This document shows positions 20,263 through 40,591 of a stretch of 52,132 bases of DNA, in pieces. Within the stretch, counting starts at the first letter, position 1. Every line of letters starts with the position of its first letter. The stretch spans positions 1 to 52,132 of the forward strand of contig NZ_JAFUHT010000036.1 in NCBI RefSeq assembly GCF_017468685.1, given 5' to 3'. Source of the stretch: Methanobrevibacter sp. (lineage in GTDB: Archaea; Methanobacteriota; Methanobacteria; Methanobacteriales; Methanobacteriaceae). The translations under genes were made by a program, and so were the position numbers. The notes beneath the pieces are model-generated. The model ran no database searches and was not told where the DNA came from. It was given only the letters and a program-made list of their open reading frames with translations.

Positions 20263-20442
20263 GTGAGTGATGGTCCTAAGATTATATGGATTCCTAAATG
20301 CCTTAAATGTGGCAGTGAGGATATTGAAATTGAAAAGTATTATGACCCGTATGACCTTGAAAAATGTTATGTTAAATATATTTGCAAAGATTGTGGTCGA
20401 GAATGGGGTTACAATGGATTAATGGAGTTTTGGGAAAAATGA
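20263..20442 (+). CDS. Small zinc-ribbon protein
   Basis: Fifty-nine residues from GTG 20263, GGAG at 20250-20253. CLKCGS (14-19) and CKDCGREWG (about 44-52) form a zinc ribbon of the transcription-factor type. ATGA overlap with the next gene. Confidence 0.55.
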   Translation: MSDGPKIIWIPKCLKCGSEDIEIEKYYDPYDLEKCYVKYICKDCGREWGYNGLMEFWEK

Positions 20443-20684
20443 GTGAGTTTAAAGACTGTGAATACAGATACTGTGAAGATGACATATTATACTGTGAGAA
20501 TAAATTAGACAAGGACAATAGGTGTGATAACTGTAAACAGAATATCCATCTTAACTGTGATAACTACAATCCTAAAAAGGATTTATGTTTGAAATTCTTT
20601 CAGGACAATATCAGCAGTATGAAAGAATGTCAGGAAAAAACAGTATTCAACGATAAAGACTTGTCAAGAAAATGGAGTAACTAA
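20439..20684 (+). CDS. Cys-rich protein
   Basis: Eighty-one residues from ATG 20439 (ATGA overlap). Eight cysteines, with CDNCKQNIHLNC in the centre, suggest zinc binding. The third Cys-rich protein in this operon. Unknown role. Confidence 0.55.
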   Translation: MSEFKDCEYRYCEDDILYCENKLDKDNRCDNCKQNIHLNCDNYNPKKDLCLKFFQDNISSMKECQEKTVFNDKDLSRKWSN

Positions 20685-20686
20685 AT

Positions 20687-20806
20687 ATGATGATTAAAAC
20701 ACACATTGCAGGAGTATTCTTAAAATTATTTTTCAAAATAATGAAAGGATACCCTTTATTTTTATTACAGATACCACCGTACACTACATTGAGGCAATGG
20801 AAATAA
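20687..20806 (+). CDS. Small hydrophobic protein
   Basis: Thirty-nine residues from ATG 20687 with GGAG at 20674-20677. One hydrophobic stretch (HIAGVFLKLFFKIM) and basic ends. Overlaps the next gene. Marginal. Confidence 0.4.
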   Translation: MMIKTHIAGVFLKLFFKIMKGYPLFLLQIPPYTTLRQWK

Positions 20807-35334: not shown

Positions 35335-36420
35335 ATGTCTACTGTTATTACAAGAGAAAACATTGTGAATGGTGACCCATTCATATTAAAATGGGCAAAT
35401 GACCCAAACAAACAAAATGGTGTATATAACCCTGGTTGGAAACAACAGACCGAAGCAGATAATTTCCTCGTTCATGTTGATAATCAAACCAGTATTATTA
35501 ATGAATGCAGATTTATTGTAATGGACGCAAAAGAGTATGATATTTCATACCTCAGAGTAAAAGCAAGATTACAATACATGGGCAGATTAACTGCATCTAC
35601 CGGTAAACCAAAAGATGCACAATTAACTGATGATTATACTACTGCCCTTGATGAGGTTGTACCTGAGTTCAGCAGAAACTCATTAATCGCTGTTCCTTTC
35701 AGTGCTTTTACATGGACTGCAAAAACATTCTTACTTGAAAACATTGAAAAAGCATCATTCTTACCAAGAATGGAAGCAATACTTGCAGAAAGAGCAGGTG
35801 TATCTGCCGAAGCAATTGGTATGTATGGAATTAAAAAAGCATCAGGTGCAACACAAGATGGTATGGACCACCTTGATGGTATTTTCCAACAATTAACTGC
35901 TGTTAAAACTGCATATGATGCGGCTGAACAAGCAGACCCAACCTCAGTCAAACAAGAACCTATGGGTTACTTTACTGACATTGATTCCACTAAACCTTTC
36001 ATTCCACAATTAAAGAAAATGCTTACTCAGTATTCCATACAAAAAGGAAACAGGTCTAATGCTAAATTCTATGTTTCCAATTTAGTTTACGGTTTACTTG
36101 TTGAAGAGGCAGATGCAAGGGAAACTGGTGAGGGTGACAGATTATACTTCCACGGTGGTGAATTATCCATTTGGAACACTCCTGTTGTTGTTGCTGATTT
36201 CCTTGACACTCCGGAAAATGATTGGGGCGAACAAATATTATTAGCAGACCCTGAATCCATTGTGTTTGGTTTCCTTGATGAAATCACTTCCGAGAACAGT
36301 TATGAGCATGACCATAAAGCATACTTGTCATCTGTTGATGTGTACTTTGACACTTTAATCTTATGGAATAAAGATGTTTTAGCTGCAAAAGTTGTTACTC
36401 CCAGCGGGAGCGGAGACTAA
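35335..36420 (+). CDS. Major capsid protein (HK97-fold type)
   Basis: 361 residues, leader GAGCTGATAAAACATG. A charged/flexible N-terminus (VNGDPFILKWANDPNKQNG) precedes alternating alpha/beta segments with a long helix (TKPFIPQLKKMLTQYSIQKG) and SNAKFYVSNLVYGLLV, in the position expected for the capsid protein after protease/scaffold. It ends SGSGD with TAA at 36418 inside a hairpin loop; a +1 slip at CCC (36400) would extend it (next entries). Confidence 0.85.
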   Translation: MSTVITRENIVNGDPFILKWANDPNKQNGVYNPGWKQQTEADNFLVHVDNQTSIINECRFIVMDAKEYDISYLRVKARLQYMGRLTASTGKPKDAQLTDDYTTALDEVVPEFSRNSLIAVPFSAFTWTAKTFLLENIEKASFLPRMEAILAERAGVSAEAIGMYGIKKASGATQDGMDHLDGIFQQLTAVKTAYDAAEQADPTSVKQEPMGYFTDIDSTKPFIPQLKKMLTQYSIQKGNRSNAKFYVSNLVYGLLVEEADARETGEGDRLYFHGGELSIWNTPVVVADFLDTPENDWGEQILLADPESIVFGFLDEITSENSYEHDHKAYLSSVDVYFDTLILWNKDVLAAKVVTPSGSGD

Positions 36421-36433
36421 TCAATCCTCCGCT
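36400..36433 (+). promoter_or_regulatory. Candidate +1 frameshift signal, CCCA plus stem-loop
   Basis: The capsid frame reads ACT CCC AGC. A +1 slip of tRNA-Pro from CCC to CCA enters the next frame. Five nt on, AGCGGAG (36409-36415) pairs perfectly with CTCCGCT (36427-36433) around the zero-frame TAA. The GC-rich stem is out of character in this AT-rich DNA. +1 slippage at CCC with a downstream structure is known from capsid and tail genes of a Listeria phage (PSA). Confidence 0.6.
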
Positions 36434-36700
36434 AATACAGAAGAAACTACTGAAACCGTAGATATTAATGTTACTGTAACTGATGGTACTAGTCCAGTTC
36501 AAGGTGCTGTTGTCACTATTGGTGGTAAATCATGTGCTAATGGTACTGGTTCAAGTGGCGGTTGTACAGTAAGTGGTGTAGCTGTTGGTACTGGTGTAGC
36601 TGTTAGTGTAACTTGTGAGGGTTATGAGGATTACACTGCTACTGAGGACATTACCACCGAAACAACTACTATGTCAATTACATTAACTGCAACTGGATAA
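36404..36700 (+). CDS. Ig-like capsid extension domain
   Basis: 98 codons open in the +1 frame from the capsid gene with no usable start codon or ribosome binding site of their own. The product is a Thr-rich linker (QSSANTEETTETVD) followed by an Ig/carboxypeptidase-regulatory-like beta domain: VTVTDGTSPVQGAVVTIGG, GGCTVSGVAVGTGV, VSVTCEGYEDYTA. Such domains decorate phage capsids and tails and bind surface glycans. Full read-through product would be about 454 residues. Confidence 0.65.
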   Translation, partial: AGAETNQSSANTEETTETVDINVTVTDGTSPVQGAVVTIGGKSCANGTGSSGGCTVSGVAVGTGVAVSVTCEGYEDYTATEDITTETTTMSITLTATG

Positions 36701-36746: not shown

Positions 36747-37112
36747 ATGGAAGAGTCTGAAATCATTTCACAAACCTTATTAAAATTAGATGGGTGGGTA
36801 TTAGATGATACAGAATTAGCAGCTACAAAGTATAATAAGAAAATAGCTGCTGATGAGATCATTCATTTTTACGGTACTGCCAAAGATTATGCATGTGCAT
36901 ATACTCAGTTAAATGAAACTCAACTTATGCAGTTAATGAGTGTAGATACAGCATTAATCTTATGGACTGCCGGTTTGCTTTGGCGGAAATATAATATACG
37001 CAGTAATGATAATATTGATGAGTCTGTAACTATTGGTTATGGAGATTCACTTATTATTCAAGCTAAGGAAATGTTAAAACCCTCTAAGTCTTATGGTTTC
37101 TATGCATACTGA
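36747..37112 (+). CDS. Head-tail connector protein (gp6-like)
   Basis: 121 residues from ATG 36747, with AGGTGAT at 36734-36740. All-helical with short turns (EIISQTLLKLDGWVLDD; MSVDTALILWTAGLLWRKY), matching the small helical adaptor that follows the capsid gene in many tailed viruses. Assigned by size, fold impression and position. Confidence 0.55.
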   Translation: MEESEIISQTLLKLDGWVLDDTELAATKYNKKIAADEIIHFYGTAKDYACAYTQLNETQLMQLMSVDTALILWTAGLLWRKYNIRSNDNIDESVTIGYGDSLIIQAKEMLKPSKSYGFYAY

Positions 37113-40007: not shown

Positions 40008-40418
40008 ATGGCAAAGAAAACTAAACAAGAAAAAGAATTAGAATACCTTTCACAAGAAGAGGAAATATACGATTTAGATGTATTAATACTTGAAGGCAAA
40101 GACACCAAAATCGACATCACAGTCGATTTCCCAACCAAAAATGGAATAAAAAAAGTCGGAGCACAAATAAGACCAGTTACAATAGAGGAATGGAATAAAT
40201 CAGTCTTAACATTCAAAAGAAAAAAAACTGATTTAACAAATCTCATACTCAGCAAATGCTTATTCAAAAGAGATGGATCAGAATTCCCAAAAGACCTCAT
40301 CTCATCAATGCCTGGTGGTGTGGCAGATAATATTTTCAAACTAATCTGTGAAGTATCTGGAATCAAACAAGATGAGGCAGAGCAAAAAGAACTGGTTAAA
40401 GAATTGGTGGGGTTTTAG
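40008..40418 (+). CDS. Tail assembly chaperone, short form
   Basis: 136 residues with GGAGG at 39992-39996. Charged N-terminus, then KIDITVDFPTKNGIKKVGAQIRP, IEEWNKSVLTF and a helical end with KELVKELVGF. Lies immediately before the tape measure, where chaperones sit. Ends at TAG 40416-40418 after G4T4; a -1 shift gives a longer form (next entry). Confidence 0.75.
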   Translation: MAKKTKQEKELEYLSQEEEIYDLDVLILEGKDTKIDITVDFPTKNGIKKVGAQIRPVTIEEWNKSVLTFKRKKTDLTNLILSKCLFKRDGSEFPKDLISSMPGGVADNIFKLICEVSGIKQDEAEQKELVKELVGF

Positions 40419-40591
40419 ATATTGAAAACGGACAGTATGGTTACTTGTCAGAATTATACTTGTCCGGTTACAAGCTAAACAATGGTGAAATGCGTGGTTT
40501 AACACCATTACAAGTTTCAAGTATTCATGCAATGAGAACAGTTGTTTGGAAATTTAAATCCAAACAAGATGCAATATTAACGGTAGGTTAA
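40409..40591 (+). CDS. Chaperone extension read by -1 frameshift
   Basis: The heptamer GGGGTTT (40409-40415) lies at the end of the short form. A -1 slip enters a frame open from 40415 to TAA 40589-40591, adding 58 residues: LDIENGQYGYLSELYLSGY..., VSSIHAMRTVVWKF. That frame has no start codon with a ribosome binding site near its beginning. GGG can re-pair fully after the slip; TTT re-pairs to GTT with one mismatch, so the site is not a textbook heptamer. Fused product about 194 residues, like gpG-gpGT. Confidence 0.7.
   Translation, partial: GVLDIENGQYGYLSELYLSGYKLNNGEMRGLTPLQVSSIHAMRTVVWKFKSKQDAILTVG

Follow-up and report, generated by a model that had tools for sequence, protein, structure and literature searches.

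Ig-like domains added by frameshifting and +1 shifts at CCC codons are both known from bacterial phages. In the Listeria phage PSA, phage proteome work revealed +1 frameshifting in both cps (capsid) and tsh (tail), at ACA_CCC_(UCC) followed by a downstream pseudoknot in the former and at CCC_UGA in the latter (PMC5009743). In phage T3 and the Lactobacillus phage A2, Ig-like domains are added by a -1 frameshift; such domains are modular and are variously attached in frame or via a -1 or +1 shift (PMC5009743). Among archaeal viruses, a +1 frameshift has been predicted in the tail gene g-t of the haloarchaeal myovirus HSTV-2 (PMC5009743, PMC8211752), and in a 2021 review, the -1 frameshift of fucA is the only archaeal case listed as demonstrated, +1 shifting being merely apparent in one halovirus (PMC8211752). 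Here, we describe a methanogen virus locus in which programmed +1 frameshifting at a CCC codon is predicted to yield a minor, 454-residue form of the capsid protein bearing an Ig-like domain, a reading to which we assign a probability of about 0.88. An archaeal capsid case would be new, with its priority uncertain.

A tailed-virus gene set in a Methanobrevibacter genome

The window analyzed here is a 52,132-nucleotide stretch of a Methanobrevibacter contig (C36; NZ_JAFUHT010000036.1) from a 2.28-Mb archaeal genome. It codes for what we take, from reading the translations, to be an integrase, an MCM-like helicase, and a terminase, and profile matches identify a portal, an XkdF-like protease, a capsid protein, and a tail sheath, which together constitute a tailed-virus gene set. 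A scan of genome contigs returned no match. The capsid gene present in a second genome of the genus (G007) is identical to its counterpart in MSTV1, which infects Methanobrevibacter smithii. Farther downstream in the window, a probable -1 frameshift is seen in the tail assembly chaperone (40008 to 40588) that precedes the tape measure gene: the upstream ORF (40008 to 40418) ends in GTG GGG TTT TAG, and the -1 frame continues to about 40588, a layout also found in three relatives (L001, L002, and L004). The virus would thus employ -1 shifting in its tail chaperone as well as +1 shifting in its capsid gene.

A capsid gene with an out-of-frame extension

The portal and protease genes lie upstream of the capsid ORF (35335 to 36420, forward strand), whose zero-frame product is a 361-aa major capsid protein. 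Its assignment is based on gene order, a match to PHROG 1623 (head and packaging; E value, 7.9e-26), and Foldseek searches with an AlphaFold2 model, which retrieved HK97-fold capsid and encapsulin shells as top matches, the model itself being poor (pLDDT, 49). A PDB sequence search with the capsid profile gave no match. Direct reading confirms the zero-frame end reported in the first-pass annotation, ACT CCC AGC GGG AGC GGA GAC TAA, with the stop at 36418 to 36420. Past a TAG (36380 to 36382), the +1 frame stays open up to a TAA at 36698 to 36700, so that the two frames are both open between 36383 and 36420 (forward strand), and any shift must fall within this overlap. The +1-frame extension (36404 to 36700, forward strand) consists of 98 aa plus the stop, and computed decoding of CCCA in one step gives a product of the 454 residues previously proposed, including the peptide VVTPAGAETNQ. 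The coding region is bounded downstream by the next gene (36747 to 37112, forward strand), the probable start of which is an ATG at 36747 with strong Shine-Dalgarno (SD) pairing (energy, -10.0 kcal/mol).

The extension frame has no usable start in the window, in agreement with the earlier description of a complete domain devoid of its own start signals. It lacks an ATG, and its sole start-like codon, a TTG at 36392, has an SD pairing energy of only -1.6 kcal/mol, compared with medians of -7.0 for the genes of the window and -2.6 for random positions.

A conserved CCC codon at the junction

Through searches of the genus and family and a profile scan of IMG/VR, we collected 21 distinct junctions, including that of the window. 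The other 20 come from IMG/VR contigs and Methanobacteriaceae proviruses, with capsid identities ranging from 35 to 99%. In all 21, the domain lies in the +1 frame, out of frame with the capsid, and the overlap contains a CCC followed by A or T, a shift-prone configuration that would permit re-pairing in the ribosomal P site. The retention of both the frame break and the CCC across these junctions places the layout beyond chance. Many of the sequences share ancestry, and the counts are not independent events. Conservation in relatives had been proposed in the first-pass annotation as a way of checking the frameshift reading, and 20 junctions besides that of the window now provide it.

Several features single out the CCC as the shift codon. 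In the window, it occupies 36400 to 36402 (forward strand), with predicted +1 re-pairing on the CCA at 36401 to 36403; it is the only CCC of the capsid gene, and CCC accounts for 5.8% of proline codons across the window. The 21 capsid genes together have 294 proline codons; CCC makes up 23 of these, 21 of which are at the junction. Either a -2 shift or a +1 shift at another point, whether AAA G to AAG or GGG A to GGA, would also join the two frames, and the overlap of the window does contain both AAA G and GGG A; however, no trinucleotide other than CCC is shared by all 21 overlaps, whichever frame is considered, and the base 3' of GGG varies within the clade, making a different shift site highly improbable. 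Equally, transcriptional slippage is known to bring about frame changes and would do so by producing a second mRNA, and we found nothing specific in its favor; the longest A/T run in the overlap is four A's rather than a long homopolymeric run, and we rejected this explanation as having a negligible chance of being correct.

The context of the CCC codon follows two patterns. In 12 junctions, a stop (TGA, TAA, or TAG) comes directly after it, and in the remaining nine, it is followed by A, with the stop located two to five sense codons further on. The terminal CCC also tracks the out-of-frame domain: among 10 capsid relatives without such a domain, it is absent from seven (L006, L042, L043, L048, L049, L053, and L054) and present in three (L056, L057, and L059), a difference from the 21 junctions with a Fisher P value of 5e-5 in a test that ignores shared ancestry. 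The three exceptions have capsid genes ending in CCC TGA, where a +1 shift would add only about eight residues (e.g., DITIIVGG), and their Ig-like domain is encoded by a separate downstream gene; the site is either a remnant or put to some other use.

The same comparisons bear on the possibility that the frame break reflects a sequencing or assembly error, with capsid and domain truly in one frame, or that the domain is dead. Two members of the family (L053 and L080) do have the domain fused in frame, as such an error would predict. Against this, the break recurs at 21 distinct junctions from different assemblies; close IMG/VR relatives with 99% capsid identity retain CCC AGC GGG, the TAA, and the +1-frame domain; and near relatives from independent metagenomes are uniformly out of frame with CCC. 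The first-pass annotation had named fusion in related genomes, as a sign of sequencing error, among the outcomes that would refute it, and the comparison gave the opposite result. In light of this conserved layout and the purifying selection on the domain (see below), error and decay can be ruled out, with at most a trace of probability left to them.

The Ig-like domain and its evolution

The extension comprises an acidic, Ser/Thr linker followed by a domain, which an AlphaFold2 model computed from 19 related sequences predicts to be a β-sandwich (pLDDT, 90). The PDB structures nearest to this model are CnaB2, the NTE domain of SusC, and the transthyretin-like/regulatory domains of carboxypeptidases, and the Pfam PEGA and CarbopepD_reg_2 profiles give weak matches below the cut-off. 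Accordingly, the label "Ig-like" applied to it from the sequence holds in the broad sense: the predicted domain is of the CnaB/transthyretin/PEGA type, prealbumin-like rather than a member of the strict Ig family. The dN/dS of the +1 frame is 0.08 to 0.57 among relatives and 0.18 to 0.46 within the clade of the window, where changes fall mostly at third positions. These values, together with the third-position excess, point to purifying selection and argue that the +1 frame is translated.

The extensions vary in length and architecture. One relative has a 168-aa extension (L064:5052-5555) in which an extra stretch of about 90 residues precedes the Ig-like domain, and two others have extensions of 172 and 178 aa (L037:960-1475 and L038:921-1454, both on the reverse strand) with apparently two tandem domains. 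The linkers of two matching extensions (L065:5097-5360 versus L069:5059-5349) differ in the number of ETP/PET repeats, constituting an in-frame length polymorphism.

Separate initiation, in-frame fusions, and the sister capsid family

The only serious rival explanation is that the Ig-like ORF codes for a separate small protein, which would be translated from the capsid mRNA through internal initiation or termination-reinitiation and would attach to the head as a decoration protein. Some relatives have features that such a protein would require: an ATG or GTG is present near the CCC in the +1 frame of seven (L037, L038, L040, L041, L052, L065, and L078), two others show strong SD-like pairing (L064, TTG, -12.6; L055, GTG, -11.0), and in six, the domain is encoded by an ORF of its own 3' of the capsid gene (L048, L049, L054, L056, L057, and L059). 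However, the clade of the window offers only the TTG noted above, with pairing weaker than the random median, and initiation leaves the universal CCC unexplained. Further, the domain is fused in frame not only in L053 and L080 but also in two members of a sister capsid family (L138 and L139), which shows that the two parts belong to a single chain. These fusions are few and confined to divergent lineages, as is to be expected for a mobile domain.

The sister family offers a parallel that bears on the same question. Here, the domain is open in the -1 frame, with a conserved AAG GAA GC(A/T) TAA at the junction, and MSTV1 (PP537965) is a member with 100% capsid identity. Its -1-frame Ig-like domain lies 3' of the major capsid gene at about 20432 to 20722 of PP537965 (L162), with ATA AAG GAA GCA TAA as the probable slip site; for a slip at AAG, the sequence predicted across the junction is ...AYIKGSINSSTTTSTK. 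No ATG, GTG, or TTG occurs in the extension frame before the domain in MSTV1 (L162/L135) or in L140, L165, and L168, and ordinary internal initiation therefore fails to account for the MSTV1 extension. Standard annotation overlooks such extensions: that of MSTV1 is wholly unannotated in the deposited record, and the vir075 record gives it as a separate "hypothetical protein."

On the strength of these observations, we consider separate initiation improbable and favor frameshifting. The first-pass proposal of a frameshift-made extension gains support from the 21 junctions, the conservation of CCC, and the purifying selection on the domain. Comparison supports two points, namely, that the domain is expressed as an extension of the capsid protein and that the CCC is the site, which has very good support as a candidate for programmed +1 frameshifting in archaea. 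The use of +1 recoding by archaeal ribosomes is, in turn, a candidate that draws on comparative evidence.

Decoding of CCC and candidate stimulatory elements

The complement of proline tRNAs in the host genus suggests why this codon might slip. A tRNA scan of the genome containing the window and of one single-contig genome of the genus detected only tRNA-Pro(UGG), the scan being a first look that an atypical gene could escape. The gene for this tRNA is present in all five genomes surveyed, and a pattern for a GGG-anticodon tRNA found matches in these five only in, or corresponding by sequence to, other tRNA genes, namely, a 110-nt gene (probably an intron-bearing Trp tRNA) and a long-armed, Ser-type tRNA. 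With tRNA-Pro(UGG) as the only one found, CCC would be decoded via wobble at U34, and a slip to CCA or CCU would keep or improve the pairing, which strengthens the earlier suggestion of slippage from CCC to CCA.

Downstream of the site, the window has a stem-loop (36409 to 36433, forward strand) formed by AGCGGAG (36409 to 36415) and CTCCGCT (36427 to 36433). As first described, it is a perfect 7-bp stem that holds the TAA in its loop; its distance, given there as five bases, is six from the CCC and five only if counted from CCCA. Five of the pairs are G-C, the loop is 11 nt long, and the fold has a minimum free energy z-score of -2.9, with equally good folds in 1 of 200 shuffled sequences. 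In two relatives (L001 and L062), a stem of different sequence (GTCAGGA/TCCTGAT) occupies the same position, and in a third (L002), it is weaker. The stem is a probable stimulator within this clade. Folding of the CCC-A relatives L055, L064, and L077 to L079 gave no evident stem and hence no clear stimulator there. We rejected the stem as a universal element, since it is clade specific and, in most relatives, the CCC is immediately followed by a stop.

We also weighed an internal GGTGA that resembles an SD and lies 5' of the CCC in relatives of the CCC-stop type. It lies about 10 nt from the CCC, and its codons are common Gly-Asp codons. The SD spacing in bacterial prfB is short, shorter than this distance, and for both reasons, we gave the motif no weight.

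For the slip mechanics, the majority form, the efficiency, the role of the stem, and a role in adhesion, we infer the following picture. Most ribosomes would stop at the TAA and release the 361-residue HK97-fold protein. A minority would pause at the rare CCC (36400 to 36402) while it is paired with peptidyl-tRNA-Pro (anticodon UGG) and would slip one base forward onto CCA, after which decoding would continue in the +1 frame. The downstream stem in the window, or the stop directly after CCC in most relatives, might slow A-site decoding and thereby raise the rate of slippage. The resulting 454-residue capsid protein would carry the linker and a C-terminal Ig-like domain exposed at the head surface, where the domain would probably mediate adhesion to glycans or mucus, and frameshifting would determine the number of copies of the extension per head. 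More broadly, it appears reasonably probable, if clearly less so than the frameshift at this locus, that CCC is intrinsically prone to +1 shifting in methanogens in which tRNA-Pro(UGG) is the sole proline tRNA, and that it serves their viruses as a general capsid recoding signal, either alone before a stop or with a hairpin, with sister viruses instead arriving at the same extended capsid through a -1 slip at AAG, a codon decoded by the lysine tRNA with anticodon UUU.

Comparison with known recoding systems

Should this broader reading hold, it would give archaea their first conserved case of programmed +1 frameshifting, and a single virus group would make use of both directions of shifting. 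The locus also provides a conserved and readily testable +1 site in a structural protein that methanogen viruses make in abundance, with a -1 counterpart in the isolated virus MSTV1. PSA is similar in that a low-GC virus makes a +1 shift on a CCC proline codon within a structural gene. Its cps site, with CCC and a downstream structure, resembles that of the window, and its tsh site, CCC_UGA, resembles those of most relatives. However, PSA has a bacterial host and its shifts were reported from proteome work, whereas the site described here is archaeal, conserved across a capsid family, and predicted from sequence comparison. T3 and A2 likewise place a C-terminal Ig-like domain on a fraction of their subunits, as is predicted here, but do so by a -1 shift in bacteria; the archaeal viruses appear to shift by +1 in one capsid family and by -1 in the sister family, and the domain that they add is of the CnaB/transthyretin/PEGA type. 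HSTV-2 shares with the window a predicted +1 shift in an archaeal tailed virus, but in a tail chaperone gene rather than a capsid gene and in a single virus. MSTV1 and vir075 (Usuviridae) are comparable in having a related capsid with the same type of domain at its end in another frame, and they differ in that this is the -1 frame, entered at AAG GAA GC(A/T) TAA, versus the +1 frame entered at CCC.
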